From contig JAFQHF010000056.1 of the NCBI GenBank assembly GCA_017398105.1, forward strand, positions 1-41,049: a stretch of DNA of 41,049 nucleotides. The letters are read 5' to 3'. A model generated the notes under the pieces. The model saw nothing but the letters and a program-made list of their open reading frames with translations. It had not been told where the DNA came from and ran no database searches. Numbering within the stretch: the first letter of the stretch is position 1; each line of letters begins with the position of its first letter. The position numbers and the translations under genes were made by a program. Origin of the DNA: Oscillospiraceae bacterium. Lineage in GTDB: Bacteria > Bacillota_A > Clostridia > Oscillospirales > Oscillospiraceae. Shown piece after piece: positions 4,344-19,176 of this stretch.

Positions 4344-4366
4344 GGTATTGACCTCCTTGCATAAAA

Positions 4367-5161: not shown

Positions 5162-6176
5162 AATGATCCCCCTTTCCGGTGATGAGCCACAGAAAGAAGG
5201 GCGCACCGATGAAAGCAGTCAGGATACCGATGGGAATACCGGCTGTGGTGGCGTTGCGGGATACGTTGTCTACCACCAGCAGGAATATGCCGCCGCCCAG
5301 CATGGATGCCGGCATGAGAAAGCGGTAGTCGCTGCCCACCAGGCGCCGCATCATATGGGGGATCACCAGTCCCACCCAGCCGATCATGCCGCTGACAGAA
5401 ACGGCAGAAGCGGTAGCCAGGGTGGAACAGATGACGATCCAAAGCCGGATGCGCGGCGCATTGACACCCATGGCCCGGGCTTCGTCATCGCCCATGGTGA
5501 TGACATTCAGCTGCCAGCGCAAGGCAAGCAGCGGGAACAGACCGGCCAGCATGGGGAGCAGAACGAAAAGGATGTCGCCCCATTTGACACCGCTGAGGCT
5601 GCCCATGAGCCAGTAGGTGATCTGGGGCAGCTGATTGTTGGGATCGGCCACCAGCTTCAGAAAGGAGGTGCCGGACTGGAACAGAGACGATACCATGATG
5701 CCTGCCAGAACAAGTCCCAGCACCCGGTCACCCCGGGCATGGCGGCTGACGGTGAACACCAGCGCTACCGTCATCAAGCTGGCGGCAAAGGCACCGATGG
5801 TAATGCCCACACTGGAAGCACCCAGCAGAATTGCCAATGCTGCACCGAAGCCCGCTCCGGCAGAGGCACCCAGAATATCCGGGGAGGCCATGGGATTCTG
5901 GAATACGCCCTGATAGCTGGCACCGGCAGCGGCCAGACAGCAGCCCACAAGAACGCTGAGTACCACCCGGGGCAGACGGATATTCCACACTGCCGCTTCC
6001 ACGGCCTCCGTCCAGAAGGGGGTGACAGGAATTCCCAGTCTGCTGCCCAGAACGCCCAGAAGCTCCGGAAGGGATACGGGATACCGGCCCAATGTAAAGG
6101 AGCCGAGCACACAGACGATCAGGATCAGACCCATGCTGCCCACCGTCCGGCGGTGCCGTTTTTCAATAGGATTCAT
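5151..6176 (-). CDS. ABC transporter permease, FecCD/BtuC/MolB family
   Basis: A 341-residue, highly hydrophobic protein of the size expected for the FecCD family, which has about ten membrane helices. Recognisable family segments are LPRVVLSVLVGCCLAAAGASYQG (a shorter part is diagnostic: GASYQGVFQNPMASPD) and GWVGLVIPHMMRRLVG, the coupling-helix region facing the ATPase. It forms the channel as a homodimer. Its start overlaps the end of the DUF364 gene as ATGA and its end overlaps the ATPase start, so the four genes are translationally linked. Substrate is inferred only from context. Confidence 0.93.
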   Translation of the reverse strand: MNPIEKRHRRTVGSMGLILIVCVLGSFTLGRYPVSLPELLGVLGSRLGIPVTPFWTEAVEAAVWNIRLPRVVLSVLVGCCLAAAGASYQGVFQNPMASPDILGASAGAGFGAALAILLGASSVGITIGAFAASLMTVALVFTVSRHARGDRVLGLVLAGIMVSSLFQSGTSFLKLVADPNNQLPQITYWLMGSLSGVKWGDILFVLLPMLAGLFPLLALRWQLNVITMGDDEARAMGVNAPRIRLWIVICSTLATASAVSVSGMIGWVGLVIPHMMRRLVGSDYRFLMPASMLGGGIFLLVVDNVSRNATTAGIPIGILTAFIGAPFFLWLITGKGDHYEH

Positions 6177-6916
6177 GTGCGTTCCCTCGTCAGTAAGAAT
6201 GGCTTGCCCATGGGATAGGGTGGGCCGGGAATGTTGTGGATGATTTTATGTTTCATACCATCCACATCGGTGATGACCAGACCTGCGATCCGGTCAATGC
6301 CCAATTCCAGAAGACCCGGACAGAGGGGGGCGCTGGGGCCTGCCAGAATGGTATAGGCATTTTTGCCAAGATCCAGCAAATGGGGCAGGGTCTTGTTCAC
6401 CAGCGTGCTGGCGGTCATGATGACCACATCGCACTGGGGGAGCAGCCAGTCGCAGGCAGAGTCGGGATAATCACCCGGTCTGGGATTCCGTTCCAGAATC
6501 CGCAGGGAAGCGGCCTGGTCATAAACGGATTGCGGCATATTCAGATGTCCCACCACGCCGATGTGCCTGCCCCGCAGATCCAGTCCGTCGGTGCAGTAAT
6601 TGTCAAAGGGTTCGTAGGCACCCAGCTGTTCCAGCCGGGCGGGCGTATTGTAATAGGCGTTGATGGCAGCCATGCCGAAACCGGCTTCCGTGAAATTCCA
6701 GCTTTTGGCGGCCCGGGCCAGCTGGGACAGGGTTTTGCCGGGATAGTCGCCGGTCAGCATCCGGGGGGCCGTGTCTGCCGGGGTGGTCATGGCCATGCCG
6801 AAGTGCGCATCCGTTTCCACTGCCGTCCAGCACTGACCGGCAAGGGTTCCCGTAACAGCGGCATCGGAGGTGATGCCATCGATCAGCACATCATAAAGTT
6901 CAAAGAAATTCTTCAT
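6173..6916 (-). CDS. DUF4213/DUF364-type protein (putative heavy-metal chelation domain)
   Basis: A soluble 247-residue protein. The N-terminal part up to about residue 95 resembles the enolase-like DUF4213 domain, and the segment from DLRGRHIGVVGHLNMPQS onwards is the Rossmann-like DUF364 domain. CDVVIMTASTLVNKTLPHLLDL and LAGPSAPLCPGLLELGID are the conserved parts. The domain is described in Pfam as putative heavy-metal chelation; no reaction is established. The gene lies between xdhC and the permease gene with a four-base gap and an ATGA overlap. It is therefore likely to act with the transporter on the imported metal or oxyanion. The RBS is weak (GGAACGGG inside xdhC), which suggests coupled translation. 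Confidence 0.8.
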   Translation of the reverse strand: MKNFFELYDVLIDGITSDAAVTGTLAGQCWTAVETDAHFGMAMTTPADTAPRMLTGDYPGKTLSQLARAAKSWNFTEAGFGMAAINAYYNTPARLEQLGAYEPFDNYCTDGLDLRGRHIGVVGHLNMPQSVYDQAASLRILERNPRPGDYPDSACDWLLPQCDVVIMTASTLVNKTLPHLLDLGKNAYTILAGPSAPLCPGLLELGIDRIAGLVITDVDGMKHKIIHNIPGPPYPMGKPFLLTRERT

Positions 6917-6920
6917 GTTT

Positions 6921-7919
6921 TTATAACCCGTTCCGTTCTGCCCGGTGGAGGATCATCTGGGCGGCAATGGAAATAGCAATTTCCGCCGGCGTTTCACCCT
7001 TGATATTCAGACCGATGGGGGTGGTGACCAGATCCAGTTCCTCATCCAGCAGACCGTATTCTTCTTTCAGAGTCCTGCGGACACCGGCTGCCTTGAAGGC
7101 ACTGCCGATGACACCGCAGTAGGTGGGGCGGCACCTGAGCACCTGTGCCTGCACGACCGTGTCATAGGCATGGCCACGGGTCATGACGCAGACGTAATCC
7201 TCACTGCCGATCTGCAGGTGATCCCCGATCCGCTGCAGATCCCCGCAGATGACTTCCTCTGCTCCGGGGAAAAGCTCCGGTTTCGTAAATTCCGCCCGGT
7301 CATCCATGACCACACAGCGGAAGCCCACATGGGACAAAACGGGGACAAGCTCCTGGGCTACATGGCCGCCGCCGAAAACATAAACCCTGCCGGAGGCGTT
7401 GATCTGTTCGGCAAAGATATCCCCGGTACGCTCCGGATGCCGGGACAGCACCAGATTTTCCGGCACTTCCATGCCCCAGAAACCTGTTTCGGGGGTGTAA
7501 AGGCCCATAACATCCTGGCTGCCCACATTTGTCAGCAACCACAGGTCGCTGCCCTTCCGGAATTCGGCCTCGGCCTTTTCGCAAAGGGTCAGAGTATGGT
7601 CATCCCCGGCGGGGATATAATGGAAAAACACATTGCAGGCACCGCCGCAGATCATGCCCAGATTCTGCACATCATCCTTGGTCAGGGTGAAGTCATGGCC
7701 CAGGGAGGTCTTTTCGGTCAGAACTTTGGCTGCGATCTGTTCGCTGCGGTATTCCACCGCGCCGCCGCCGATGGTGCCGCAGATGCGGCCTTCCGCGCCC
7801 ACAAGCATCCGGGCGCCGGCTCCCCGGGGCGTTGCACCGGAGGAGGCAATGACGGTGACCAGGACCAGAGCCTCACCATGCTCCAGCTTGTTTTTTATGG
7901 TTTTCAGCATATTTCGCAT
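6921..7919 (-). CDS. xdhC: XdhC/CoxI-family molybdenum-hydroxylase maturation factor
   Basis: This 332-residue protein has the N-terminal XdhC/CoxI domain (IASSGATPRGAGARMLV, CGTIGGGAVEYRSE, LGMICGGACNVFF) and a C-terminal Rossmann domain (VYVFGGGHVAQELVPVLSHVGF; later MTRGHAYD and CGVIGSAFK). Characterised XdhC proteins bind the molybdenum cofactor, protect it while the terminal sulfido ligand is added, and deliver it to xanthine dehydrogenase-type enzymes. Here the obvious client is the Mop-like oxidoreductase at 11041. The cysteines in CGTIGGG and ICGGAC are the conserved ones. The gene directly abuts the histidine phosphatase gene (stop at 7920). Confidence 0.93.
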   Translation of the reverse strand: MRNMLKTIKNKLEHGEALVLVTVIASSGATPRGAGARMLVGAEGRICGTIGGGAVEYRSEQIAAKVLTEKTSLGHDFTLTKDDVQNLGMICGGACNVFFHYIPAGDDHTLTLCEKAEAEFRKGSDLWLLTNVGSQDVMGLYTPETGFWGMEVPENLVLSRHPERTGDIFAEQINASGRVYVFGGGHVAQELVPVLSHVGFRCVVMDDRAEFTKPELFPGAEEVICGDLQRIGDHLQIGSEDYVCVMTRGHAYDTVVQAQVLRCRPTYCGVIGSAFKAAGVRRTLKEEYGLLDEELDLVTTPIGLNIKGETPAEIAISIAAQMILHRAERNGL

Positions 7920-8468
7920 TTATGATTCCTCCAATAATTCAAAGCGTCCATTCTCCCATAGCAGAGAAATGATTTCTGCATAATCCGGCTTATACCATCT
8001 GCCGCCAATATCTTGCAGGAACTGGGCAATGATGCCGCCGTGGGCAACCACTGCAAAATCGCCGGGGCTTTGCTTGGCGGCTTCTTCCATGGCCCCTTTA
8101 AACCGGGCAAGTCCCTCAGCGTGGTCTTCCGCTCCCGGCAGGGGGATCGTCAGATCGTGGAACCGGGCGGCATACAGCTCCGGATACCGCCGGCGGATCT
8201 GGTCGAAGGTCAATCCGTCCCATTCCCCGGCGTACATTTCCCGCAGGCCGTCCAGAATGGCAACGGGAAGCCCGATGGCCTGTGCTGTCTGCACCGCCCG
8301 GGTCAGGGGACTGGAAAATACGGCGCTCACCGCAGGCAGAAGCTTCGCCATTTGAGCTGCCTGAGCAAGTCCCTTTTCTCCCATGGGGATGTCTGTTGTG
8401 CCGATGCACATTCCTTTTCCCCCGGGAAAATCCGGCAGACCGTGGCGGATCAGGTAGACCTTTTTCAT
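7920..8468 (-). CDS. Histidine phosphatase (phosphoglycerate mutase-like) family protein
   Basis: A 182-residue cytoplasmic enzyme of the one-histidine phosphatase branch. The catalytic phosphohistidine motif is LIRHG (RHG) at the N-terminus, FSSPLTRAVQTA provides the second arginine, GEWDG follows, and VVAHGGII supplies the second histidine. Relatives include alpha-ribazole phosphatase CobC and many enzymes of unknown substrate. The start overlaps the stop of the NTP-transferase gene (ATGA). Its place between cofactor-nucleotide chemistry (NTP transferase) and XdhC suggests a phosphomonoester or nucleotide formed in molybdenum cofactor handling, but no substrate can be read from the sequence. 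Confidence 0.88.
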   Translation of the reverse strand: MKKVYLIRHGLPDFPGGKGMCIGTTDIPMGEKGLAQAAQMAKLLPAVSAVFSSPLTRAVQTAQAIGLPVAILDGLREMYAGEWDGLTFDQIRRRYPELYAARFHDLTIPLPGAEDHAEGLARFKGAMEEAAKQSPGDFAVVAHGGIIAQFLQDIGGRWYKPDYAEIISLLWENGRFELLEES

Positions 8469-9391
8469 TCAAACATTCCTCCGAAATATTGCTCGTACAG
8501 CAGCTTTGCCTGCTCCTTCAGATCCTGTTCGTAAGCATTGTAGCGCTGCAAAAGCGCCTTGCCCCGGTCGGTCAGGACGCTGGTGCTGCCGCCGGCACCG
8601 CCCTGGCTGCGCTCGATGAGAGAGTGGTTCAGCTGACTTTCCAGGGTGCGGATAATATTCCAGCAGCTGGAATAGCTCAGCTGCATCCGCTGAGACGCAG
8701 CACGGACGGATTTGGTTTCGTCAATGAGCATCAGCAGCATGGCGATCTTGCTGTCGAAAAAGGGCTTTTCCTTGGCCAGGGAAACGCTGACTACCGGGCG
8801 TACCAGCTGCGAGTTGTGGTAGCTGACCAGTGCGGAAAAATCCTCCGGCGTATCCGCATCGTGGATGGTGCCGGGATCATCCACATCGATCCGCTTCAGC
8901 GTCACACTGCAGCGGTCCATGGCGCCCTTCAGACCCATTTCACCGCAGTCGTTCAGAATTTCCGGGATCAGTTCCTTAGCGATCAGAATGGGGTGTCCCT
9001 GCCTGCCCTCGCACATGGGACAGGCCAGCGGCGCGCCGGAATCCAGGATGGTCCTTACGGTTTTTGCGGTGAACAGGGGAACATCCACCGGTGTAAAAAG
9101 AACCTTGTCGCACTTGTCCTGCAGATAGTCCAGACCGATTTTGACGGAATCAAACATCTGGGTGGTTTCGTACCGGTCATTCCGCAGGAAAATAATGCCG
9201 TTTCCTGCCAGATGCCGTTCCAGCATGGTGGCATTGTAGCCTGTGACCATAACGATCTTGCTGACTCCGGCCTGACTCAGGGTGGCCACCACCCGCTGGG
9301 CAACGGAAATGGAGCCGATGGAGAGCATGGGCTTAAATTCTCCCATTCTGCTGGACATACCTGCCGCAACGATCAGGGCACCGATCTGCAT
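8465..9391 (-). CDS. MobA/MocA-like NTP transferase fused to a ModE-type winged-helix domain
   Basis: The ATG at 9389-9391 follows GGAGGCG and gives 308 residues. Residues 1 to about 195 form a nucleotidyltransferase domain: GALIVAAGMSSRMGEFKP is the nucleotide loop and FTPVDVPLF the metal-binding aspartate region, as in MocA and MobA, which add CMP or GMP to the molybdopterin cofactor. From about residue 215 follows a winged-helix domain (DSKIAMLLMLIDETKSVRAAS, LSYSSCWNIIRTLE) of the ModE N-terminal type, ending after ERSQGGAGGSTSVLT. The same domain stands alone at 20582. No molybdate-binding (Mop/TOBE) domain is present. It heads the seven-gene minus-strand operon. I infer a bifunctional cofactor enzyme and transcription factor. 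A palindromic site lies just downstream of its own promoter. Confidence 0.88.
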   Translation of the reverse strand: MQIGALIVAAGMSSRMGEFKPMLSIGSISVAQRVVATLSQAGVSKIVMVTGYNATMLERHLAGNGIIFLRNDRYETTQMFDSVKIGLDYLQDKCDKVLFTPVDVPLFTAKTVRTILDSGAPLACPMCEGRQGHPILIAKELIPEILNDCGEMGLKGAMDRCSVTLKRIDVDDPGTIHDADTPEDFSALVSYHNSQLVRPVVSVSLAKEKPFFDSKIAMLLMLIDETKSVRAASQRMQLSYSSCWNIIRTLESQLNHSLIERSQGGAGGSTSVLTDRGKALLQRYNAYEQDLKEQAKLLYEQYFGGMFE

Positions 9392-9423
9392 GTTGAACGC
9401 CTCCTCTGATTGCAATAAAAAGC

Positions 9424-9484
9424 AAGTTGTAATAAATTGCAAGTTCTATAAAAATACTATACGCAACATTGATGAAAATGTAAA
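9424..9484 (-). promoter_or_regulatory. Promoter of the minus-strand operon with ModE-like operator, site 1
   Basis: Read on the minus strand, -35 TTTACA (9484-9479) and -10 TATAGT (9461-9456) are separated by 17 bases. Immediately downstream, around +5 to +25, is a 22-bp palindrome at 9424-9445, written on the plus strand AAGTTGTAA, TAAA, TTGCAAGTT. A repressor here would block transcription, consistent with autoregulation by the fused winged-helix domain. Confidence 0.65.
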
Positions 9485-9499
9485 GAAAAAAGATTTTGT

Positions 9500-9530
9500 G
9501 TCTTGTAATTTTGTGCAGCTTTGCTATAAT
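9500..9530 (+). promoter_or_regulatory. Promoter of the methyltransferase gene with weak ModE-like site (site 4)
   Basis: -35 TTGTAA (9503-9508), a 16-base spacer and an extended -10 TGCTATAAT (TATAAT at 9525-9530). A degenerate match to the 9-4-9 site covers 9500-9521: GTCTTGTAA, TTTT, GTGCAGCTT. The transcript leader then carries a hairpin around 9561-9593 (GTCA...TGAC with CCTGAGC/GCGAGCC inside). Confidence 0.5.
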
Positions 9531-9610
9531 GGGAGCAAAGTTTTTGTCATTAGTAAATGCTGTCATCCTGAGCAAAGCGAGCCGAAGGCTGACAACATGG
9601 GGGGAATGGT

Positions 9611-10558
9611 ATGGGCATTTATGTATGGGGCACCGGCTGCGGTGCATCGGAACTGATCGAGCAAGGTTTGGCGTTGGCGCGCATATCTGCCTTTGTGGAC
9701 AGCTTTCCCGGCGGAGAAACCTTTCTGGGCAAGCCGGTTCTGCTGCCGGAGCAAGTGTGCCTCAATGACTGTGAACTGCTGATCGTCACCACCCGGCATA
9801 CCGATGCTGTGGCAAAGCGGTGCAGGCAGCTGGGAATTCCGGAAAGCAAGCTGCTGTTTCTGAAAAATAACCATGTGCTTTCCGACCGCAATGCTTCCTG
9901 CTCCATTGCCCGGAAGCTCCTGGGGGAAGAACTGCTGAATAAACTGCTTCCGAAGCAGAGAATCGTCCCGACACCTGCAGCCCTTGTCAATTCCATGCTG
10001 CCGGAGCGGGATTTGAGCAACGACTATGTGCGTCTGGCCACATTGGAGCTGCTGTGCCGCCGCCTGGCGGAGGTTCCCGGCGCGGCAGCGGAGCTGGGTG
10101 TCTATCGTGGCTTCTTTGCCCGCTGCATCAATCTGCTCCTTCCGGAGCGGAAGCTGTACCTGTTTGACAGCTTTGAAGGTTTCTCAGAAGAAGCCAAGGC
10201 ATCGGAATCCTTCCAGGCAGCCCATGCCAACACCAACATTGAGAATGTATTGGCCATTATGCCCCATCGGTCAGTGGTTACGGTAAAACCCGGATTTTTC
10301 CCGGCTTCCCTGAATGGGCTGGAAGAAAAATTCTGTCTGGTTTCTCTGGATGTGGATTTTGAGAAGACCACCCTGGAGGGACTTCGTTATTTCTGGCCGC
10401 GGCTGAATCAGGGAGGCTATCTGATGCTCCACGACTGGGCCAGCCCGAAGCTTCCCGGCGTTGCCCGGGCGCTGGAACGGTATGAACAGGAGCTTGGCAG
10501 GAAAATTCCCGCGCTTGCTTTGTGCGATGTGGGCGGAACCTTGGTGTTATGTAAATGA
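9611..10558 (+). CDS. Two-domain protein: small Rossmann-like domain plus TylF/macrocin-type O-methyltransferase
   Basis: The protein has 315 residues. Residues 1 to ~90 (IYVWGTGCGASELIEQGL ... DCELLIVTTRHTDAVAKRC) form a Rossmann-like domain of the kind often attached to carbohydrate enzymes. The rest resembles the TylF/MycF family of SAM-dependent methyltransferases: AELGVYRGFFARCIN is the SAM motif, LYLFDSFEGFSEE and LVSLDVDFEKTTLEGL are hallmark segments, and GGYLMLHDW is the metal-binding aspartate region. Most characterised members methylate sugar hydroxyls in antibiotics, but many gut bacterial homologues are uncharacterised. It is divergent from the cofactor operon and ends in its own terminator, so a link to the aldehyde oxidoreductase system is only suggested by position. 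Its start has only a modest RBS (GGGGGGAATGGT). Confidence 0.8.
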   Translation: MGIYVWGTGCGASELIEQGLALARISAFVDSFPGGETFLGKPVLLPEQVCLNDCELLIVTTRHTDAVAKRCRQLGIPESKLLFLKNNHVLSDRNASCSIARKLLGEELLNKLLPKQRIVPTPAALVNSMLPERDLSNDYVRLATLELLCRRLAEVPGAAAELGVYRGFFARCINLLLPERKLYLFDSFEGFSEEAKASESFQAAHANTNIENVLAIMPHRSVVTVKPGFFPASLNGLEEKFCLVSLDVDFEKTTLEGLRYFWPRLNQGGYLMLHDWASPKLPGVARALERYEQELGRKIPALALCDVGGTLVLCK

Positions 10559-10595
10559 GTTGAACATTTTGTTAAAATGCCTTTGCATTTTTAAA

Positions 10596-10637
10596 CGCAG
10601 CTTGTGCATCTTTCACAAGCTGCGCTTTTCTTTTTCT
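10596..10637 (+). terminator. Terminator of the methyltransferase gene
   Basis: CGCAGCTTGTG pairs perfectly with CACAAGCTGCG over a 7-base loop, followed by CTTTTCTTTTTC. Confidence 0.92.
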
Positions 10638-10639
10638 GC

Positions 10640-10689
10640 AACTTGCAATGATTTGCAAGTTGTAAGAAAAATACAATCTGGGATACAAT
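10640..10689 (+). promoter_or_regulatory. Promoter of the mop operon with ModE-like operator, site 2 (best palindrome)
   Basis: A perfect 9-4-9 palindrome at 10640-10661, AACTTGCAA, TGAT, TTGCAAGTT, overlaps -35 TTGTAA (10660-10665). After 18 bases comes -10 TACAAT (10684-10689). The same half-site architecture occurs at 9424 and 13799. It precedes the 85-residue gene and the aldehyde oxidoreductase. Confidence 0.7.
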
Positions 10690-10740
10690 AACATTGTGGC
10701 AAGACATAAACGGGCCAGAAATAGTCAGAAGGTGTTTTAC

Positions 10741-10998
10741 ATGGAAGAAAAGATTTTCGAAATTTCCGCAAAGGAAGTAACCATTGAAGTTGTGGACGAG
10801 GCCACGGGAAAGCAGTACCGCCGTACCCTCCCCATTGACTACTACGAGACTGCCAACGGTCTGGTGCTTCGGGGAGAAAATCTGGACGGCAGTATTTCCC
10901 AGCTGGTCTTCTATACGGCCCGGGGTATGCAGCGCATGCAGGACTTAACGGGCAAGGGCCCGGATGAGGACCCCTGCGGCGGCCACACGCACACTTAA
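10741..10998 (+). CDS. 85-residue protein of unknown function, first gene of the mop operon
   Basis: I do not recognise a family. The start at ATG 10741 follows AGAAGGTG; the alternative GTG at 10696 would add 15 residues without an RBS. The protein is small, soluble and acidic, with predicted beta strands (KEVTIEVVDEATGKQYRRTLP, then LVLRGENLDGSISQLVFY). It ends in a striking DEDPCGGHTHT tail with one cysteine and two histidines, a possible metal-binding end. It is 42 bases upstream of the aldehyde oxidoreductase and under the same operator-bearing promoter. A role as chaperone, metal donor or small partner of that enzyme is an inference from position alone. Confidence 0.7.
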   Translation: MEEKIFEISAKEVTIEVVDEATGKQYRRTLPIDYYETANGLVLRGENLDGSISQLVFYTARGMQRMQDLTGKGPDEDPCGGHTHT

Positions 10999-11040
10999 AA
11001 ATCCCAAATCTGATGATAAATTAAGGGAGGAAACGGTATT

Positions 11041-13794
11041 ATGATTAAAAAGACACTGATCATCAACGGCGTAACCCGGAATATCCTGGTGAACGAGAAT
11101 GAGACTCTCGCCACCTTCCTGCGTGAGCGCCTGCTGCTGACCGGCTGTAAGATCGGCTGCGGCGAGGGCCATTGCGGTGCATGTAATGTCATTGTAGACG
11201 GCAAGGTCACCCGCTCCTGTGTTGTAAAGATGGGCAAGGTCAAAGATGGCGCTGAGATCACCACCATCGAAGGTATCGGTACCATTTCCGACATGCATCC
11301 CCTGCAGGTGGCATGGATGGCCCATGGCTGCGCACAGTGCGGCTTCTGCTCCCCCGGCTTCATCATGTCCGCCAAGGTCCTGCTGGACAACAACAATGCT
11401 CCCACCCGTGAAGAAGTTCGTGACTGGTTCCAGAAGAACCGGAACCTGTGCCGCTGCACCGGTTACAAGCCCCTGGTCGATGCTGTTATGGATGCAGCCC
11501 GTGTTTACCGCGGAGAGATCACCAAGGAAGATCTGATCTTCAAGCCCACCGGTGATTCCATCATCGGCACCAAGTACATCCGTCCTTCCGCAGCTCAGAA
11601 GGTCACCGGTACCTGGGACTTCGGCGCTGACGATGCTCTGAAGATGCCCGAAGGCACCCTGCGTCTGGCCCTGGTTCAGGCCAAGGTCTCCCATGCTCTG
11701 ATCAAGGGCATCGACACCACCGAGGCTGAGAAGATGCCCGGCGTTGAGAAGATCATCACCGCTGCTGACATCGTGGCTGCCGGCGGCAAGAACCGTATCA
11801 ACGGCCTGGTCATGCTGCCTCTGAACAACAAGTGCGACGGCTGGGATCGTCCTGTCCTGTGTGACGAGAAGATCTTCCAGTTCGGCGATGCCATTGCCAT
11901 CGTTGCTGCTGACACCGAGGCTCATGCCCGTGCTGCTGCCGACGCTGTCAAGGTCGACATCGAACTGCTGCCCGCTTACATGAACGCCATGGATGCCATT
12001 GCCGAAGACGCAATCGAGATCCATCCCGGTGTTCCCAATGCTTACTACGAGACCAACTGTATCAAGGGCCCCGACATCGACTTTGATGCCGCACCCAATG
12101 TGGTCGAGATCGAGTCCTACTGCTCCCGTCAGCCCCACCTGCATCTGGAGCCTGACTGCGGCTACGCTTACATCGACGAAGACGGCATGGTCACCGTCCA
12201 CTCCAAGTCCATCGGTATCCACCTGCATATGCCCATGATTGCTGACGGTATCGGCGTTCCCATGGACAAGCTGAGAATCGTTCAGAACCACGCCGGTGGT
12301 ACCTTCGGCTACAAGTTCTCCCCCACCAACGAGGCTCTGCTGGGCGCTGCCGCCAAGATCATCGGCAAGCCCGTCTCCCTGGTCTTCAACCAGTTCCAGA
12401 ACATCACCTACACCGGCAAGCGCTCTCCCGGCTTCATGAACATCAAGCTGGCTGCTGACGAGAACGGTAAGATTCTGGGTCTGTGGGGCAACAACTACAT
12501 CGACCATGGTCCTTACTCCGAGTTCGGCGACCTGCTGACCCATCGTCTGAGCCAGTTTGTTGGCGCAGGCTATGACATCCCCACCATCCGCAACAAGTCC
12601 CAGACTGTCTTCACCAACCATGCATGGGGCTCCGCTTTCCGTGCTTACGGTTCTCCCCAGTCCTTCATGGGCTCCGAAATCGCCATCGACGTGCTGGCTG
12701 CCAAGATGGGCATGGATCCCTTCGACATCCGCGAGCTGAACTGCTACAAGGAGTCCGCAGGTTCCACCATCCCCACCGGCTACGCTCCCGATGTCTACTG
12801 CCTGGAAGAGATGTACAAAATGGCCCGTCCCCTGTACGAGGCAGGCAAGAAGCGCGTTGCTGAGAAGAATGCTGCTTCCGATGGCCGCTACAAGTACGGC
12901 ATCGGCGTTGCCTCCGGCGTTTACGGCTGCGGCCTGGACGGCGTTGACTCCTCTCAGGCTTACGCAGAGCTGAATCCTGACGGCACCGTCACCATGTACG
13001 CTTCCTGGGAAGATCATGGTCAGGGCGCTGACATGGGCGTGCTGCAGTCCGCACACGAGACCCTGCGTCAGATCGGCATCAAGCCCGAGCAGATCCGCTT
13101 GGTCATGAACGACACCAAGATCACGCCCAACTCCGGCCCCGCCGGCGGTTCCCGTTCTCAGGTCATGTCCGGTAACGCCTGCCGTCTGGCTGCTGAAAAC
13201 CTGATCGCTGCCATGAAGCGCGAGGACGGCACCATCCGTACCTATGAAGAGATGAAGGCTGAAGGCATCGAGACCAAGGTTCTGGGCAACTGGGTCACCG
13301 ACTACTGCGCCGAGCATCCCGTGGATCAGGCTACCTCTCAGGGCGATCCCTTCGCAACCTATATGTACACCCTGTTCCTGCCCGAGGTCTGTGTCGATAC
13401 CCAGACCGGTAAGGTCAAGGTTGAGAAGTTCACCTGCGTGGCTGACGTTGGCACCATCCTGAACAAGCTGCTGGTTGACGGCAACTTCTACGGCGGTCTG
13501 GCACAGGGCATCGGCCTGGCACTGACCGAGGACTTTGAGGATCTGAGCAAGCATACCAGCCTGAAGAACTGCGGTATTCCTTATCCCAAGGACATTCCCG
13601 ATGACATCGAGCTGCACTACCTGCAGACCTACCGTCCCAATGGTCCTTACGGTGCTGCCGGCTGCGGCGAGGCTCCTCTGGATGCTCCTCACCCCGCAAT
13701 CCTGAACGCAATTTACAACGCCACCGGCGCTCGTATTACCCGCATTCCCGCTCTGCCCGAAGTCGTCCTGGCTGCCCTGGCTGAGCTGAAGTAA
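11041..13794 (+). CDS. mop: Mop-type molybdenum aldehyde oxidoreductase (xanthine oxidase family)
   Basis: The 917-residue chain follows Desulfovibrio gigas aldehyde oxidoreductase (about 907 residues) along its whole length, as far as I can recall that sequence. Residues 1-80 are the plant-type [2Fe-2S] domain with C40, C45, C48 and C60; residues 80-160 hold the second cluster with C100, C103, C137 and C139 (AQCGFCSPGF, NLCRCTGYKP). No FAD domain is present. The molybdopterin part contains GGTFGYKFSPT, AFRAYGSPQ, WEDHGQGADMG and GPAGGSRSQVMSGN. The catalytic glutamate is E877 in GCGEAPL. Such enzymes oxidise aldehydes to acids using water and pass electrons to a ferredoxin or flavodoxin. Codon use is strongly biased to C-ending codons, which suggests high expression. 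RBS is GGGAGG. The sulfido ligand would come through XdhC. Confidence 0.95.
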   Translation: MIKKTLIINGVTRNILVNENETLATFLRERLLLTGCKIGCGEGHCGACNVIVDGKVTRSCVVKMGKVKDGAEITTIEGIGTISDMHPLQVAWMAHGCAQCGFCSPGFIMSAKVLLDNNNAPTREEVRDWFQKNRNLCRCTGYKPLVDAVMDAARVYRGEITKEDLIFKPTGDSIIGTKYIRPSAAQKVTGTWDFGADDALKMPEGTLRLALVQAKVSHALIKGIDTTEAEKMPGVEKIITAADIVAAGGKNRINGLVMLPLNNKCDGWDRPVLCDEKIFQFGDAIAIVAADTEAHARAAADAVKVDIELLPAYMNAMDAIAEDAIEIHPGVPNAYYETNCIKGPDIDFDAAPNVVEIESYCSRQPHLHLEPDCGYAYIDEDGMVTVHSKSIGIHLHMPMIADGIGVPMDKLRIVQNHAGGTFGYKFSPTNEALLGAAAKIIGKPVSLVFNQFQNITYTGKRSPGFMNIKLAADENGKILGLWGNNYIDHGPYSEFGDLLTHRLSQFVGAGYDIPTIRNKSQTVFTNHAWGSAFRAYGSPQSFMGSEIAIDVLAAKMGMDPFDIRELNCYKESAGSTIPTGYAPDVYCLEEMYKMARPLYEAGKKRVAEKNAASDGRYKYGIGVASGVYGCGLDGVDSSQAYAELNPDGTVTMYASWEDHGQGADMGVLQSAHETLRQIGIKPEQIRLVMNDTKITPNSGPAGGSRSQVMSGNACRLAAENLIAAMKREDGTIRTYEEMKAEGIETKVLGNWVTDYCAEHPVDQATSQGDPFATYMYTLFLPEVCVDTQTGKVKVEKFTCVADVGTILNKLLVDGNFYGGLAQGIGLALTEDFEDLSKHTSLKNCGIPYPKDIPDDIELHYLQTYRPNGPYGAAGCGEAPLDAPHPAILNAIYNATGARITRIPALPEVVLAALAELK

Positions 13795-13798
13795 TTTT

Positions 13799-13857
13799 AA
13801 GTTCCAAAAAGATACAAGTTATGTTATAATAGGAGAGGCGGCCCCCGCGGCCGCCTC
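13799..13857 (+). promoter_or_regulatory. Promoter of the reductase operon with ModE-like operator, site 3, and leader hairpin
   Basis: Directly after the mop stop codon lies a 9-4-9 site, AAGTTCCAA, AAAG, ATACAAGTT (13799-13820), then an extended -10 TGTTATAAT (TATAAT 13825-13830) with only a weak -35 (TTCCAA, 17-base spacer). A strong hairpin, GAGGCGGCC-CCCGC-GGCCGCCTC (13835-13857), follows at about the transcription start. It lacks a T run, so it is more likely a 5' stabilising hairpin or a weak terminator of mop. Confidence 0.55.
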
Positions 13858-13881
13858 TTCGCTAATATACAACCATTTATC

Positions 13882-14082
13882 TGTAGGGCGGGGTCATCTA
13901 AATTGTGGTATGATTGCCACCGGCAATCATTGCGATTATAAATCCGCTGCGCGAAGCACCACGCCGCCGATCAGGTATCGATCAGCGAAATGTACCGATA
14001 AACGCAGAAACCAATATGACCGATCATACGAAAACAAGGCAATTGATTGACTGCGTCGGCGGGGTCATGACCCCGCCCTACA
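13882..14082. repeat. TGTAGGGCGG palindromic repeat element, copy 1
   Basis: The element starts TGTAGGGCGGGGTCAT and ends with the complete palindrome GGCGGGGTCATGACCCCGCC followed by CTACA. The left palindrome is interrupted by about 65 bases that include a hairpin TGATTGCC-ACC-GGCAATCA. The inner segments CGCCGATCAGG and TGCGTCGGCGGGG recur in copy 2 at 16374. It fills most of the 313-base gap before the next gene and lies in that gene's presumed leader. Confidence 0.8.
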
Positions 14083-14107
14083 AATCTGTCTGAGGGGAGT
14101 GACCTTT

Positions 14108-16366
14108 GTGATTATCGAAGAACGGCAATCGACCCATGTGTACCGCCAGAAGCGTCTGTTTACCAAGGAAGAGCTGGAAGCCAAGGAGTCCCTCTGCGTT
14201 CATGAGCAGCCGGCCTACTGCAATGCTGCCTGCCCGCTGAAGCTGGATACCAAGGCCATGATGGCGGCGATTTCTTCCGGAGATTTTAATAAGGCTATGG
14301 CGCTTTATGAAAAGATCACCCCCTTTCCCCATATCCTGTCTGCCGGATGTGAGGCTCCCTGTGAAGGAAAGTGCAAGCTCTGGGAATTAGGCGAGGGGAT
14401 CAGCATCCGGGCATTGGAAGCTGCCGCTGTCCGTTACGGCGAACGGACAAAAAGAAAAGGCCTGCTGCGGAAGAAGACAAAGAAAGCCGCGGTTTACGGT
14501 GCTGACCTGTTTTCCCTGTTCCTGGCGGGAGAACTGGCGAAGAAAATGTACCCGGTGACGGTGTACTGCACGGAAAACGACTACGATTCTCTGATCCGCG
14601 CCTGCGTCCCCGGTTTACCGGAAGAAGTTCAGGCTGCCGCGGCAGCGGATCTGAAGAAAATCGACATTCAATTTGAATTTAACGCAGAGCCGGTATCTGC
14701 TTATGCCGGAACTGCTCTGAAATATGATCTGATTTGCGCGTCTTACGAAGTGGCAAACCAGCTGTATCCCGGATTGGAGGTTGACGAAGCCGTCATGGTC
14801 TGCCGGGAACGGGGACTTATTACCGGAAAAACCGAAGGCGTGCTGGGTGCGGCCTTTGGCGCAAAGAAAGCAGCCCTGTCGGCCGACCGCCTGGCCCAGA
14901 ACCTGGACCCTTCCAATACCCGCGGTGACGAGGGAAGCGTGGAAACGAAGCTTTACACCAATCTGGAAGGAGTACAGCCCTCCAGGCAAATACCCTGTGA
15001 CAGTAAGGAAAATGCAATTGCAGAAGCCTCCCGGTGTATCCAGTGCAAATGCGACGAGTGCATCAAGGGCTGTGCCTACCTGCAGCATTACAACAAATTC
15101 CCCCGGATTCTGACCCGGGAAATTTACAATAACGTCTCCATCATCATGGGCGACCATATGATGAACAAGCCCATCAACGCCTGCAGCCTGTGCGGGCAGT
15201 GCAGTGTCCTGTGCCCCAACGGCTATGATATGGCGCAAGTTTGCCATCTGGCCCGGCAGAATATGGTATACACCGGAAAAATGTCCCTGGCGCCCCATGA
15301 ATTTGCCCTGATGGACATGGTGTTTTCCAATGACGAAGCCTTTTTGTGCCGAAAGCAGCCGGGTTTTGACACCTGCAAATATGTATTCTTCCCCGGCTGC
15401 CAGGCTACGGCCATTGCTCCGGCTACCGTCCGGGCGGCATATCTTGACTTGTGCAGCCGATTGGACGGCGGCGTTGCCCTGATGCTGGGCTGCTGCGGTG
15501 CCATCTGTGATTGGGCAGGACGGTATGAAATGTATGAGGATACAGTCAAATTCCTGGACGAAAAGCTGGAAAGTCTGGGAAATCCTACGGTGATTGCCGG
15601 ATGTCCCACCTGCAAAAAGCAGCTGTCCCGGCATGAAACACTGGGGATCTGGGAGGTTCTGGAGAACATCGGTCTGCCGGAAAAGGCAAAACGTGCCGAT
15701 AAACCCATCGCCATCCACGATGCCTGCGGCGCAAGAGGCGACCATGAGACGCAGGATTCTATTCGCCGCATTGCCGAAAGTCTTGGCTGTCAGGTGGAGG
15801 ATACCCCGTACAGCGGTGACAAGTCTCCCTGCTGCGGCTACGGCGGTCTGCCCCAGTTTACCAACCGGGAAGTGGCGAAGAAAATGACGGACAAATGTCT
15901 GGAACGCTCTGACTTGCCCTACCTTTCCTACTGTATGGCCTGCCGGGATCGGTTCGCCCGGGAAGGGAGGGAGTCCATGCACCTGCTGGAGCTGGTCTAC
16001 GGAACTTCTGCTGACCACACACCCGACATCAGCGCCAAGCGGTATAACCGTCTGAGCCTGAAAAATGAACTATTGAAGGAAGTTTGGAACGAGGAGGTGG
16101 AAGCCGTGGACTTGGGCTTCTCCATTGAATATACCCCCGAAGCAGAAGCTATGATGGATGACCGGATGATCCTGAAGACCGACGTGATCCGGGTGCTGCA
16201 GTCTCTGCGGGAAACCGGCGAGGCGATCCTGGATGAGGAGACCGGCCTCATCGTCACCCGGGCAAGACTTGGCAATGTGACCTTCTGGGTAAAGTTTACC
16301 GAAACGGAGACCGGTTACTTAGTCCACCGGGCCTACAGCCACCGGATGACGATTCAATCCCGCTAA
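14108..16366 (+). CDS. Pyridine nucleotide-disulfide oxidoreductase-like protein with two ferredoxin-type cluster motifs and CCG (HdrB-like) domains
   Basis: A 752-residue multidomain protein starting at GTG 14108; GTG 14099 touches GAGGGGA and is less likely. The N-terminus has the GltD/DPD-type iron-sulfur domain (CNAACPLKLDT, GCEAPCEGKCKLWE). The following Rossmann segment, AAVYGADLFSLFLAGELAKK, has lost the usual GxGxxG, so flavin binding is doubtful. Then come CIQCKCDECIKGCAY and CSLCGQCSVLCPNG, both 4Fe-4S motifs, and an HdrB-like region with GCCGAICDWAG, GCPTCKKQL, CCGYGG and CMACRDRF. This architecture fits the family NCBI calls pyridine nucleotide-disulfide oxidoreductase/dicluster-binding protein. 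In this locus it is the natural electron partner of Mop. The last ~100 residues (from about 660) form a small domain I do not recognise. Confidence 0.85.
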   Translation: MIIEERQSTHVYRQKRLFTKEELEAKESLCVHEQPAYCNAACPLKLDTKAMMAAISSGDFNKAMALYEKITPFPHILSAGCEAPCEGKCKLWELGEGISIRALEAAAVRYGERTKRKGLLRKKTKKAAVYGADLFSLFLAGELAKKMYPVTVYCTENDYDSLIRACVPGLPEEVQAAAAADLKKIDIQFEFNAEPVSAYAGTALKYDLICASYEVANQLYPGLEVDEAVMVCRERGLITGKTEGVLGAAFGAKKAALSADRLAQNLDPSNTRGDEGSVETKLYTNLEGVQPSRQIPCDSKENAIAEASRCIQCKCDECIKGCAYLQHYNKFPRILTREIYNNVSIIMGDHMMNKPINACSLCGQCSVLCPNGYDMAQVCHLARQNMVYTGKMSLAPHEFALMDMVFSNDEAFLCRKQPGFDTCKYVFFPGCQATAIAPATVRAAYLDLCSRLDGGVALMLGCCGAICDWAGRYEMYEDTVKFLDEKLESLGNPTVIAGCPTCKKQLSRHETLGIWEVLENIGLPEKAKRADKPIAIHDACGARGDHETQDSIRRIAESLGCQVEDTPYSGDKSPCCGYGGLPQFTNREVAKKMTDKCLERSDLPYLSYCMACRDRFAREGRESMHLLELVYGTSADHTPDISAKRYNRLSLKNELLKEVWNEEVEAVDLGFSIEYTPEAEAMMDDRMILKTDVIRVLQSLRETGEAILDEETGLIVTRARLGNVTFWVKFTETETGYLVHRAYSHRMTIQSR

Positions 16367-16373
16367 ATCAGTC

Positions 16374-16514
16374 TGTAGGGCGGGGGCATGCCCCCGCCGA
16401 TCAGGCTGAAGTTTGCAGAATGTTTGTTATGAGGCATAGATTGGCACTGCGGATTCATGCAGAGATCGCTTAATAGCCGATCGTGCGTCGGCGGGGCCGT
16501 GACCCCGCCCTACA
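16374..16514. repeat. TGTAGGGCGG palindromic repeat element, copy 2
   Basis: Left palindrome TGTAGGGCGGGGGCATGCC with CCCGCCGATCAGG, a spacer of about 70 bases, and the right palindrome CGGCGGGGCCGTGACCCCGCC followed by CTACA. Both arms are intact, so this copy shows the full form: two hairpins with TGTAGGG/CCCTACA outer ends. It separates the reductase gene from the small redox gene. Confidence 0.85.
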
Positions 16515-16534
16515 GTGTAAGTGAGGGCAAGAAA

Positions 16535-16756
16535 ATGGCAACAGAAAAAAACTACTACACCATAGACCCGGAAGGAAAGCTCACCTGCATGAAGTGTAAG
16601 GTCAAGCTCCACAAGGGTAAGGCAAAATTCATGTATCTGGACAACGGCTTCCCGGTGGAACTGCCGGTGTGTCCCAAGTGCGGATTCGTATATGTTCCGG
16701 AGGAACTGGCCCTGGGCAAGGTGCTTTCCGTGGAGAAAGCCCTGGAGGATAAGTGA
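16535..16756 (+). CDS. Small double-CxxC redox or zinc-ribbon protein (DVU_1557-like)
   Basis: A 73-residue protein; the ATG at 16535 follows GAGGG at a normal distance, while the longer frame would run through the repeat. Two cysteine pairs, CMKC near residue 17 and CPKC near residue 45, flank a beta-rich middle (KAKFMYLDNGFPVELPV), as in rubredoxin-like or zinc-ribbon folds. It matches what I recall as the DVU_1557 family redox protein found beside Mop-type oxidoreductases. The stop overlaps the next start (TGATG), so the methyltransferase is co-translated. It may carry electrons for the oxidoreductase, or simply bind zinc. Confidence 0.8.
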   Translation: MATEKNYYTIDPEGKLTCMKCKVKLHKGKAKFMYLDNGFPVELPVCPKCGFVYVPEELALGKVLSVEKALEDK

Positions 16757-17274
16757 TGCAGGGCCACCCGGGCGGTGAGAAGCACAGCCGCTACTTAATT
16801 GAACTGAGCTTTCTGGAAGCGGGCAGCAAATGGCTGGACATGGGTGCCGGCGATGGTGAAACTGTCCGGCTCTTGCGAACATTGGGTTACAGTGCCGAGG
16901 GCATCGACCTGGAACCCCGGGGAAAGGATGTGACCAGAGGCAACTATCTGGAATGTCCCTGGCAGGACGGTTTCTTTGACGGGATTTTGTCCCAGTGCAG
17001 TTTTTATGTGGGCGGCAATATTCCGAATGCGCTGAAGGAAGCCTCCCGGCTGCTGCGAAAAGGCGGTAAGCTGGTGTTCTCTGATGTGACGGAAAATGTG
17101 GTAGCCTTGCTGAATCAATGCCGTCAGGCAGGTTTTGCCGTGCGCCATATGGAAGATATGACCGAACAGTGGAGGGAATATTACCTGGAAGCCCTGTGGA
17201 CGCAGGACAATGTTTGTCTTCCCCGGGGAAAGAAGTTCAGCTATATTCTGTTCGTCTGTGAGAAAGTTAGCTAA
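16756..17274 (+). CDS. Class I SAM-dependent methyltransferase (DVU_1556-like)
   Basis: A 172-residue protein beginning MQGHPGGEKHSRYLIELSFL. The SAM-binding loop is WLDMGAGDGETVRLLRTLGY, the acidic residue at the end of strand 2 is in GIDLEPR, and FFDGILSQCSFYVG and LRKGGKLVFSDV follow the class I order. It is shorter than most such enzymes. In related loci a methyltransferase of this type always seems to accompany the C-GCAxxG-C-C and radical SAM proteins, so it probably acts in making or modifying a cofactor or small thiol. The substrate is unknown. Start overlaps the redox protein stop by one base. Confidence 0.85.
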   Translation: MQGHPGGEKHSRYLIELSFLEAGSKWLDMGAGDGETVRLLRTLGYSAEGIDLEPRGKDVTRGNYLECPWQDGFFDGILSQCSFYVGGNIPNALKEASRLLRKGGKLVFSDVTENVVALLNQCRQAGFAVRHMEDMTEQWREYYLEALWTQDNVCLPRGKKFSYILFVCEKVS

Positions 17275-17280
17275 CAGATC

Positions 17281-17309
17281 GTAGGGCGGGGTCATGACCC
17301 CGCTCTACA
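17281..17309. repeat. TGTAGGGCGG palindromic repeat, copy 3 (single hairpin)
   Basis: A solo palindrome, GTAGGGCGGGGTCATGACC followed by CCGCTCTACAA. The single C-to-T change still allows G-T pairing in RNA. It lies 6 bases after the methyltransferase stop and 24 bases before the next start. Confidence 0.85.
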
Positions 17310-17332
17310 AAGCATTCAAAAGGGGGGCTATC

Positions 17333-17758
17333 ATGGACTTGGAAGAAAGAATCATGGAGTTAAGCCGCTATGGCTACGCCTGCGGGCAGATTCTGGCGAT
17401 TTTGCTTCTGGATACAATCGGAGAAGAGAATCCGGCGCTGGTTCGCTGTATGCAGGGCTTAAACGGCGGTATCGGATCTTCCGGTGATGTCTGCGGCTGC
17501 ATGGCGGCAGGCTGCTGCCTGATTTCCTATTTCACGGGAAAACCCGGCGATACTGAGTTCGACAGTCCTTATCACAAGGGGGCTATGGGGGAATTTACCC
17601 GGTGGTTCACCGAGGAGATGGAACTGGAATATATGGGCATCGACTGCCGTGATATCGTGGGAACCAATCCTGCCAGGAAGGTACAGTACTGCCCGAATAT
17701 AATTGCATCCACCTATGAAAAGTGTATGGAAATTTTAGAGAACCGAGGACTCATCTGA
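17333..17758 (+). CDS. C-GCAxxG-C-C family protein (DVU_1555-like)
   Basis: The ATG at 17333 follows AGGGGGG and gives 141 residues. The family signature is visible: a first cysteine in GYACGQILA near residue 17 and then DVCGCMAAGCC around residues 50-60, with two further cysteines in the C-terminal half (GIDCRD, VQYCPN). C-GCAxxG-C-C proteins are small helical proteins thought to bind a redox cofactor or metal; they are often exported or coupled to molybdenum enzymes, though no signal peptide is present here. The stop is followed directly by the ATG of the radical SAM gene. Confidence 0.87.
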   Translation: MDLEERIMELSRYGYACGQILAILLLDTIGEENPALVRCMQGLNGGIGSSGDVCGCMAAGCCLISYFTGKPGDTEFDSPYHKGAMGEFTRWFTEEMELEYMGIDCRDIVGTNPARKVQYCPNIIASTYEKCMEILENRGLI

Positions 17759-19075
17759 ATGGAAATCGGAAGAACCCAATCCGTATGCCCGGTCTGTCTG
17801 GCAAAAATCCCGGCGGTGAAAACCCTGGGGGAAGACGGCAATATTTACATGGAAAAACGCTGTTGGGAGCATGGCAGCTTCAAGACCCTCATCTGGGAGG
17901 GTGACCTGGAAAGCTATACCGCTTGGGCTTCCGGAGATGCCAACGGCATTGTCACGCCTGTCCGGGCACAGCCGGTGGAGAAAGGCTGCCCCTATGACTG
18001 CGGCCTGTGCCAGAGCCATGAGCGGGACGGCTGCTGTGTGCTGCTGGAGCTGACCAATCGCTGCAATTTGAAATGTCCTGTCTGCTTCGCCTCCGCAGGA
18101 GAGCAGAAGCCCTTTGATCTGTCTCTGGAGGAAATCGGGAGACAGTATGACCTGCTGATGGAACGGGGCGGCCCCTTCAATATTCAGCTATCCGGCGGCG
18201 AACCCACTATGCGTGATGACCTGGACAAGATCATTGCGTTGGGAAAAGAAAAGGGCTTTACCTTCTTTCAGCTGAATACCAACGGTATTCGCATTGCCCG
18301 GGAAGATGGCTATGCAGAGCATCTGGTGAAGGCCGGTGTCAGCGTGGCATTTTTGCAGTTTGACGGCCTGGACGATGAAATCTACCGGACTCTCCGGGGC
18401 GTAGATTTGCTGGAAACCAAGATAAGGGCCATCGACAACTGCAAAGCTGCCGGGCTGCCTGTGGTGCTGGTGCCGACCGTTGCTCCCGGGGTCAATGACC
18501 ATGCATTGGGAGACATCCTCCGCTTCGCTCTGAGCCGGGCACCGCATGTCCGGGGCGTGCATATCCAGCCCATTTCCTACTTCGGCCGCTGCGGCCTGGA
18601 AGCACCGGAAATCCGTCTGACCATTCCCGCCGTTCTTCGCAGGATCGAAGCGCAGATGGGCGGCGTTATGAAGATCACCGATTTTGGTGGCGGCGGTGCG
18701 GAGAGCCCCTATTGCTCTTTCCATGCCAGTTATATGCGAAAAAAGGACGGAACCATCAAGGCTCTGCCCCGGCGGCGGAGTCAGTGCTGCTGTGTCAAAT
18801 CCAGCGAAGCCCGGGATTTTGTGTCCCAGCAGTGGAGCGGCAAGGCTAGCTGCTGCGATGGGGATGAAGCCACCTCCTCTCTGGATGCCTTCCTGCAGCA
18901 GACTGTGGAAAATACCTTCACTGTTTCCGGTATGGTATTCCAGGATGCTTACAACTTAGACCTTGACCGGCTGCGCCGCTGCTATATCTGCGAGGTGGAT
19001 ACCGATAAGGGCATGGTTCCTTTCTGTGCCTACAATCTGACGGATATCCACGGACGGGCCCTGTATCGGAAATAA
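17759..19075 (+). CDS. TrsS-like radical SAM protein (cysteine form)
   Basis: A 438-residue radical SAM enzyme. The cluster-binding motif CxxxCxxC is C102, C106 and C109 in NRCNLKCPVCFA; GGEP (LSGGEPTMRDD) contacts SAM. The N-terminus has a CPVC pair (C10, C13) and a later GCPYDCGLC motif, and the C-terminus is rich in cysteines (QCCCVKS, ASCCDG, YICEVDTDKGMVPFC), so auxiliary clusters are likely. The arrangement fits the radical SAM (seleno)protein TrsS family seen with Mop-type oxidoreductases; in some species one cysteine is selenocysteine, here I see only cysteine codons. It adjoins the C-GCAxxG-C-C gene without a gap. Its product is not known. Confidence 0.87.
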   Translation: MEIGRTQSVCPVCLAKIPAVKTLGEDGNIYMEKRCWEHGSFKTLIWEGDLESYTAWASGDANGIVTPVRAQPVEKGCPYDCGLCQSHERDGCCVLLELTNRCNLKCPVCFASAGEQKPFDLSLEEIGRQYDLLMERGGPFNIQLSGGEPTMRDDLDKIIALGKEKGFTFFQLNTNGIRIAREDGYAEHLVKAGVSVAFLQFDGLDDEIYRTLRGVDLLETKIRAIDNCKAAGLPVVLVPTVAPGVNDHALGDILRFALSRAPHVRGVHIQPISYFGRCGLEAPEIRLTIPAVLRRIEAQMGGVMKITDFGGGGAESPYCSFHASYMRKKDGTIKALPRRRSQCCCVKSSEARDFVSQQWSGKASCCDGDEATSSLDAFLQQTVENTFTVSGMVFQDAYNLDLDRLRRCYICEVDTDKGMVPFCAYNLTDIHGRALYRK

Positions 19076-19083
19076 AGCCCTTC

Positions 19084-19160
19084 GTAGGGCGGGCTGCCCT
19101 CAGCCCGCCGCCAATTGCATATGTTTCCGAAAGCGGCGGCTTGAGGGCAAGCCGCCCTAC
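19084..19160. repeat. TGTAGGGCGG palindromic repeat element, copy 4 (short variant)
   Basis: Two hairpins: GTAGGGCGGGCTGCCC with TCAGCCCGCC at 19084-19109 and GGCGGCTTGAGGGCAAGCCG with CCCTAC at 19135-19160, separated by 25 bases. Copy 5 at 26951 has the same two arms in the opposite order, so it is the same variant inverted. Confidence 0.85.
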
Positions 19161-19176
19161 AGAGGATTTTACCAAA

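Follow-up and report, generated by a model that had tools for sequence, protein, structure and literature searches.

Which protein reads the palindromes at the promoters of a molybdopterin-dependent aldehyde oxidoreductase operon and of its divergent neighbour? In a 41,049-nucleotide contig of an Oscillospiraceae bacterium (GCA_017398105.1, JAFQHF010000056.1; this whole stretch is called the window), the mop operon diverges from a minus-strand operon (9391 to 3288) that carries a FecBCD-type transporter and is led by a gene fusing a MocA-like nucleotidyltransferase to a ModE winged helix (mocA-modE). An initial annotation of this DNA proposed four 22-bp palindromic sites of 9-4-9 geometry, each on a promoter, which would tie transport, cofactor and enzyme genes into one ModE-like regulon, with two ModE-like proteins (encoded at 8465 and 20582) as candidate binders. 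From the sequence comparisons described here, the palindromes at 10639-10662 and 9406-9463 are very probably operators of the fusion encoded at 8465-9391. The features concerned are as follows, palindromes being given without strand:

10639..10662, no strand: 24-bp predicted operator CAACTTGCAATGATTTGCAAGTTG in the mop promoter (score 28.1; same place in relatives)
10660..10689, plus strand: promoter of the operon of the 85-amino-acid protein gene and mop, TTGTAA-N18-TACAAT (-35 TTGTAA, -10 TACAAT)
10741..10998, plus strand: first gene of the mop operon, encoding an 85-amino-acid protein without family match
11041..13794, plus strand: mop, molybdopterin-dependent aldehyde oxidoreductase (NF045668, 1517.7 bits, cutoff 1100)
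9406..9429, no strand: box 1 of an overlapping three in the mocA-modE leader (score 15.1)
9423..9446, no strand: box 2 of this array, the first site of the initial annotation (score 19.3; exact pattern match)
9440..9463, no strand: box 3 of this array, over the minus-strand -10 TATAGT (score 14.2)
9456..9484, minus strand: promoter of the mocA-modE/transport operon, TTTACA-N17-TATAGT
8465..9391, minus strand: mocA-modE fusion of 308 residues, a MocA-like nucleotidyltransferase that ends in a ModE winged helix and lacks TOBE, the proposed owner of the boxes

For comparison we used a set of 81 loci (1,479,227 bases, 1.48 Mb), among which the fetched relatives nearest to the window are the uncultured Oscillospiraceae L051 and L001, with mop 99 and 98% identical. 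In the regions upstream of mop, the element stands out as an island, TTTCTGCGACTTGYA-N6-TRCAAGTTGAAA, which in most Oscillospiraceae lies about 390-410 bp before mop and precedes the gene of the 85-amino-acid protein. Its core is a 24-bp palindrome with a 9-6-9 frame, CRACTTGYA-N6-TRCAAGTYG (hereafter the box), which in 40 diverse promoters carries 1.03 bits of information per column, compared with 0.24 and 0.16 in the flanks. The 22-bp frame was accordingly abandoned for one that is a base wider on each side; the sequences and coordinates given earlier for the three main palindromes (9424, 10640 and 13799) were exact. The initial pattern, with up to three mismatches, gives six strand-matches in the window, all at these three palindromes, compared with a mean of 0.46, and never six, in 100 dinucleotide shuffles. 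Two of the four proposed sites, at 9424 and 10640, hold up well and do lie on promoters, whereas the other two are not convincing members, the one at 13799 being weak and the one at 9500 unsupported (see below).

A palindromic matrix (listing threshold 6.6 bits) was refined by iteration over mop promoters, 53 of 77 regions being used. As a non-circular test, the initial pattern alone was scored between 230 and 700 bp upstream of mop and compared, locus by locus, with 200 Markov resamples. In the latter test, with the window excluded, a box is found upstream of mop at p<=0.05 in 30 of the 38 loci with a ModE helix in view (p<=0.01 in 26 of 38), and in 12 of the 14 helix-bearing loci whose mop is less than 80% identical (p<=0.05). 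Where mocA is present and a helix is not seen, the box is found in one of 15 loci, and in none of 13 after removal of L039, the single positive, and L026, both of which are cut by a contig end. Where neither mocA nor the helix is in view, it is found in 10 of 22 loci, a count that leaves out L031, L036, L047 and L068, which are cut inside mop. L062 was too short for this test and was dropped. By the matrix, 36 of the 38 helix-bearing loci reach at least 14 bits in the mop region, the exceptions being L027 and L016, the latter with its box at -113 instead.

Over the 1,479,227 bases, there are 92 matrix matches of at least 16 bits, compared with none in 1,476,620 positions of a resampled control; 57 of them (from 53 loci) lie in the promoter regions of mop, 18 (13 loci) before mocA-modE and 17 (9 loci) elsewhere. 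Those elsewhere, a stray one in L052 apart, lie before modA in L022 (19.7 and 25.3 bits, by the mop-trained matrix), between modA and a di-TOBE gene in L049 (16 to 23 bits), between the genes for a FecBCD-type permease and its binding protein in L023, before a TrsS-like gene in L021, and behind the fusion gene in L016 and L035; L055 and L032 have the same sites as L049 and L023, respectively, and were placed through their near-identity to these. When CRASTTGYA-N6-TRCAASTYG was run on 12 whole genomes with up to two mismatches, it gave 22 places, and 10 when read backwards. All 12 places with 0-1 mismatch lie inside the fetched mop loci, as do 4 of the 10 with two mismatches. The strict motif is therefore nearly confined to the mop locus, and two-mismatch matches elsewhere are at background. 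The genome-wide control and the search in relatives thus bear out the initial proposal, the strict form being found only in these loci and the same promoters carrying it in relatives.

At the fusion gene, where one site had been seen, 9406-9463 holds three overlapping boxes at a 17-bp pitch. This pitch recurs, since neighbouring matches of at least 9 bits and at most 120 bp apart are spaced by exactly 17 bp in 27 of 36 cases (from 17 of the 81 loci), and boxes so spaced overlap by a 7-bp edge, CAASTTG. A box of at least 9 bits lies within 260 bp upstream of the fusion gene in 33 of 38 uncut mop loci, the window counted; some of these boxes are shared with the divergent mop promoter, and the box is missing in L001 (8.7), L019, L020, L029 and L033. 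In mop genomes with the fusion apart from mop, only 5 of 11 uncut cases have a box upstream of the fusion gene itself. Taken together, these two counts suggest that self-regulation of the fusion is common but not universal.

Pfam finds NTP_transf_3 and the LysR-type HTH_1 in the fusion protein, and a TOBE (Mop) domain was not found by Pfam in either of the two ModE-like open reading frames (ORFs) of the window. Residues 206-289 align with E. coli ModE, the recognition stretch being SYKSAWDAI in E. coli and SYSSCWNII in the window fusion; most fusions retain SYS and W. With the ModE model TIGR00637 (cutoff 98.5 bits), the two ORFs score 65.7 and 57.4 bits (E 3e-18 and 1.1e-15), and the fusion carries at its C-terminus the helix that ModE membership places at the N-terminus. 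The enzyme part is likewise below cutoff for MocA (TIGR03310, 114.3 of 186.45 bits) and for the DVU_1551 family (NF045665, 186.1 of 315 bits), the 359-position model of which is matched at 1-196 only, the remainder of the fusion being the ModE helix. A structure model (pLDDT 85.5) has Rv0371c as its best PDB match (2we9, E 8.5e-11, TM 0.82 on the target); in this fold search the enzyme part resembles Rv0371c and MobA, the 50 matches listed are all nucleotidyltransferases or their fusions, and the helix was placed by sequence. All 120 homologues listed, of 2296, carry NTP_transf_3 and HTH_1, and those given a name by their source are called ModE-like protein or nucleoside triphosphate (NTP) transferase. 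The window fusion has the nucleotide-binding loop signature SxRMGxxK, which is intact in 49 of the 58 ORFs that combine the helix with a recognizable enzyme domain. Six of the nine ORFs that have lost it (L020, L029, L130, L133, L175 and L176) still have 14 to 25-bit sites, which suggests that the helix can do its work without catalysis.

The distribution of fusion and box across genomes points to the same owner. Of the 42 loci without a helix in the flank, 38 were searched genome-wide for it, the other four being those cut inside mop. Sixteen of these genomes, L076 apart, have a box of at least 14 bits at mop, and 15 of them carry the helix elsewhere (E<=1e-27); in the sixteenth, L026, mocA is cut by the contig end and the helix match is 3.1e-13 only. 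L015 has neither box nor helix. The 21 remaining genomes include a single one with a box at mop, L076 (17.5 bits). The genomes of L073, L074 and L076 have helix matches of <=1e-15, in open frames that are 307-367 residues long and in one case contain a TAG within the match; the other 18 have weaker matches or none. In these three genomes the fusion does not adjoin mop, lying far away or on a different contig, and a box follows it directly. These boxes stand before genes for modA, modB and an ATPase (L130, 25.4 bits), before a MoCF-domain gene, MoaC and MoaA (L132, 16.2), before a selenium-dependent xanthine dehydrogenase (L133, 14.2), before a xanthine-dehydrogenase-type gene (L134, 9.6), and before a 241-residue ORF followed by xanthine-dehydrogenase-type genes (L131, 15.8). 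Two further draws for the helix at 1e-15, which hit 5 of 245 genomes of a class and 15 of 295 of an order (two centres included), added six fusions. Altogether, the two draws and the three outgroup genomes supplied 11 distant fusions with the enzyme-then-helix order (excluding L118 and L128), and 6 of these 11 have a site of at least 14 bits within 260 bp downstream. Because the box stands beside distant fusions and in fusion-carrying genomes, the motif tends to follow the fusion rather than mop. A commensal relative, a Blautia, has the system as well.

The idea of one ModE-like regulon of transport, cofactor and enzyme genes is thus upheld by boxes before mop, mocA-modE, modA, the FecBCD-type transporter, molybdenum cofactor (Moco) genes and xanthine-dehydrogenase-type genes. 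The genes with such a box before them include modA genes scoring above cutoff (L022, L049 and L130), MoaA and the selenium-dependent xanthine dehydrogenase.

Several observations were made beside these fusions. A variant box, CRASTTCTT-N6-AAGAAYTTG (CTT for GYA), occurs in L131, L133, L175 and L176, beside fusions that adjoin xanthine-dehydrogenase-type genes; a link between helix letters and this variant (L131, L133 and L175) is a three-case hint only and is not claimed. In the ORFs of L118 and L128 (364 and 308 residues), a ModE-like stretch precedes a weakly MocA-like one, the reverse of the window fusion, and a site of at least 9 bits was not found at either. The stand-alone ModE helices of the order (L141-L148 and L151-L154) have 121-158 residues.

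Two further features enter the choice among explanations:

10602..10618, no strand: TTGTGCA-N3-TGCACAA, the second palindrome conserved at the mop promoter, located 20 bp before the box
20582..20956, plus strand: ModE winged helix alone, an apparent remnant of a second fusion with the enzyme domain lost and the initial MRIGA kept

The boxes might belong to another regulator of molybdenum genes, the fusion being a co-regulated enzyme whose helix binds elsewhere. We consider this unlikely, although it accommodates several facts that weigh against ownership by the fusion, whose binding to the box we infer. When the best match per promoter is taken, 27 of 53 mop promoters have the second palindrome upstream of the box at a distance of exactly 20 bp; the match reaches p<=0.05 in 26 of 53, with 23 of these at the 20-bp distance, so another factor may act at the mop promoter. 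In 13 genomes it occurs at 2-15 places per genome, versus 0-2 for the reversed pattern (many places in G002 and G003 are copies of one repeat), and it may be part of the site set of a wider regulator; in the window it is contained in the 9611 gene's terminator hairpin. In addition, none of the 12 stand-alone ModE helices of the order has a box within the 0.4 to 1.5 kb fetched on each side, and among the fusions located away from mop, 6 of 11 lack a box upstream of their own gene. Yet the box accompanies the fusion into genomes that keep the latter away from mop, adjoining it in 6 of 11, it is absent from the 13 uncut mop loci with mocA and without a helix, and its frame is that of the ModE box. 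It is hardly credible, and of the explanations weighed here the most improbable, that the boxes are bound by the 20582 helix and not by the fusion. This protein has a ModE-type helix with a similar recognition helix (ISYSTAWN vs. LSYSSCWN) and is encoded in the same cluster, but only 4 of the 58 loci reaching its place have such an ORF (the window, L001, L003 and L051), whereas a box of at least 16 bits is found at mop in 53 loci. We have therefore rejected it as the general owner of the box, so that of the two binders first suggested only the fusion travels with the motif. Pfam finds HTH_1 alone in the 20582 ORF; its counterparts in L001 (18448-19455, 335 residues) and L003 (19090-19977, 295 residues) are full fusions that lack the loop signature, and that in L051 (19499-19873) is a bare helix as in the window, the starting MRIGA being kept in both bare copies. 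From these comparisons we read it as a degenerate, truncated paralogue of the fusion.

The palindromes could also be merely promoter (-35 region) or terminator sequences conserved along with their genes, which we regard as very improbable. The last three bases of the box, TTG, are the start of the -35 in mop promoters, 44 of 53 aligned ones having 17 or 18 bp between -35 and -10, and close relatives have common flanks; -35 function may thus explain part of the right arm at mop. However, no role in the promoter is evident for the left arm, boxes occur before unrelated operons (modA, transporter and Moco genes), and neither the drop in information outside the 24 bp among diverse promoters nor the exact 17-bp spacing of neighbours fits a promoter alone. 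Operators of the fusion remain the reading we favour, and further points weigh against it. The matrix scores at mop are circular because the matrix was trained on mop promoters, and many of the loci are related by descent. L027 reaches only 11.7 bits at mop, L052 has a stray match of 17.9 bits in a genome without a strong helix match, five of the 11 fusions away from mop have no good site within the 260 bp downstream, and the fusion helix scores under the ModE cutoff.

The two remaining sites of the initial annotation correspond to the following features:

13798..13821, no strand: box-like weak palindrome after mop (score 10.4), probably not a conserved operator
9503..9530, plus strand: promoter of the 9611 gene, TTGTAA-N16-TATAAT, read earlier as a fourth site

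Roughly one shuffled position in 100,000 reaches the score of the palindrome after mop. Among the 10 relatives printed, it is clear only in L003 (10.2 bits, same place) and degraded in L051; in the rest, the -10 and a hairpin are kept at this place. With a weak score and poor conservation, it was rejected as a full member of the regulon. The weaker site placed at 9500-9521 falls under the 6.6-bit listing threshold, and the conserved feature there is a promoter, that of the 9611 gene, accompanied by a TTTTGTGCA half-element, so it too was rejected. The gap between mop and the 14099 gene has an extended -10 promoter followed directly by a strong GC hairpin at 13820-13860, kept in the relatives printed, and an inverted repeat pair around GGCGGGGTCAT/ATGACCCCGCC at 13879-14085, perhaps a small interspersed element.

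The neighbouring genes of the window are:

3288..8468, minus strand: remainder of the cofactor/transport operon, with phosphatase-like, XdhC-like, DUF364, FecCD-type permease, ATPase and binding protein genes
14099..20394, plus strand: dicluster oxidoreductase, DVU_1557, methyltransferase-like, DVU_1555, TrsS and DVU_1553 genes, a known mop neighbourhood
40747-40934: malK-I RNA (Rfam, 111.6 bits)

Together with mop they include a maturation cluster of the DVU_1551-1559 type, in which Mop, the dicluster protein, DVU_1557, DVU_1555, TrsS and DVU_1553 exceed their cutoffs. The DVU_1556 methyltransferase (99.9 of 155 bits) and the XdhC relative (285.6 of 350 bits) of the window are under theirs. 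At Rfam gathering thresholds, malK-I is the sole family in the whole window and a Moco element was not found; riboswitch control was rejected on this ground.

If the fusion owns the boxes, a dimer of its ModE-type winged helix would bind CRACTTGYA-N6-TRCAAGTYG much as E. coli ModE binds its own box, ATCGNTATATA-N6-TATATANCGAT (PMC545781). The three boxes at its own promoter reach over the -10 and the expected start, and hence the fusion would be expected to repress its cofactor/transport operon. At mop, where the box ends in the -35 and its centre would lie about 46 bp before the expected start of the operon, the fusion might either block the sigma factor or act as a contact activator, and we favour repression. 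E. coli ModE shares with this system a homologous winged helix and a 9-6-9 palindrome with an outer C and an inner A in each arm; its boxes likewise precede modA, Moco and molybdoenzyme genes. The earlier statement that the motif is not the TATATA-type box of E. coli thus holds for the letters (inner ACTTGY here vs. NTATAT) and not for the frame, which is common to both. In contrast to E. coli ModE, 17-bp arrays are frequent here, and the fusion lacks TOBE domains and has its helix behind a MocA-like enzyme. A single-helix ModE without TOBE is also described for Desulfovibrio, with another motif and spacing (CGGTCACG-N14-CGTGACCG) and a sensing mechanism termed unclear, and a nucleotidyltransferase fusion is not mentioned in the sections of that paper drawn on here (PMC545781). 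With MocA and the DVU_1551 family NTP transferase the fusion shares the enzyme domain and the place in the mop maturation cluster, whereas the ModE helix that follows the enzyme domain sets it apart. In the open-access literature we did not find this motif or a fusion regulon described, a search in which "ModE" is inseparable from "mode", so that a report may have been missed. Judged by sequence, the box would represent an operator class of ModE type that serves a MocA-ModE fusion without TOBE, ModE-like in its working and not a full ModE by its defining domains.

Because TOBE is missing, the signal would most likely be read by the MocA-like domain, as a nucleotide, molybdopterin or the finished cofactor; in L049, a separate di-TOBE gene itself adjoins boxes. 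BirA and NadR are cofactor enzymes that double as repressors of their own pathways. The fusion, in its predicted role, would resemble them in joining a cofactor-making enzyme to a DNA-binding domain that controls its own pathway, although their folds are unrelated to it. More tentatively, and as a possibility that we would not yet call probable, the fusion may be a cofactor-sensing trigger enzyme, in which the MocA-like domain reads molybdopterin, its nucleotide or the finished cofactor, and not molybdate, and thereby sets the helix on the 17-bp arrays. Since loop-less copies (9 of 58) keep the domain, the helix and often the box, the same reading would have the fusion become a pure sensor more than once, and the second copy in the window shrink to a bare helix.

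With the helix joined to a cofactor-pathway enzyme and predicted operators that can be named to the base, sensing by TOBE-less ModE becomes testable at the bench, and the operator matrix would permit molybdenum regulons to be annotated in gut Clostridia. If true, the fusion suggests a way for these gut bacteria to match the expression of molybdenum genes to the state of the cofactor.

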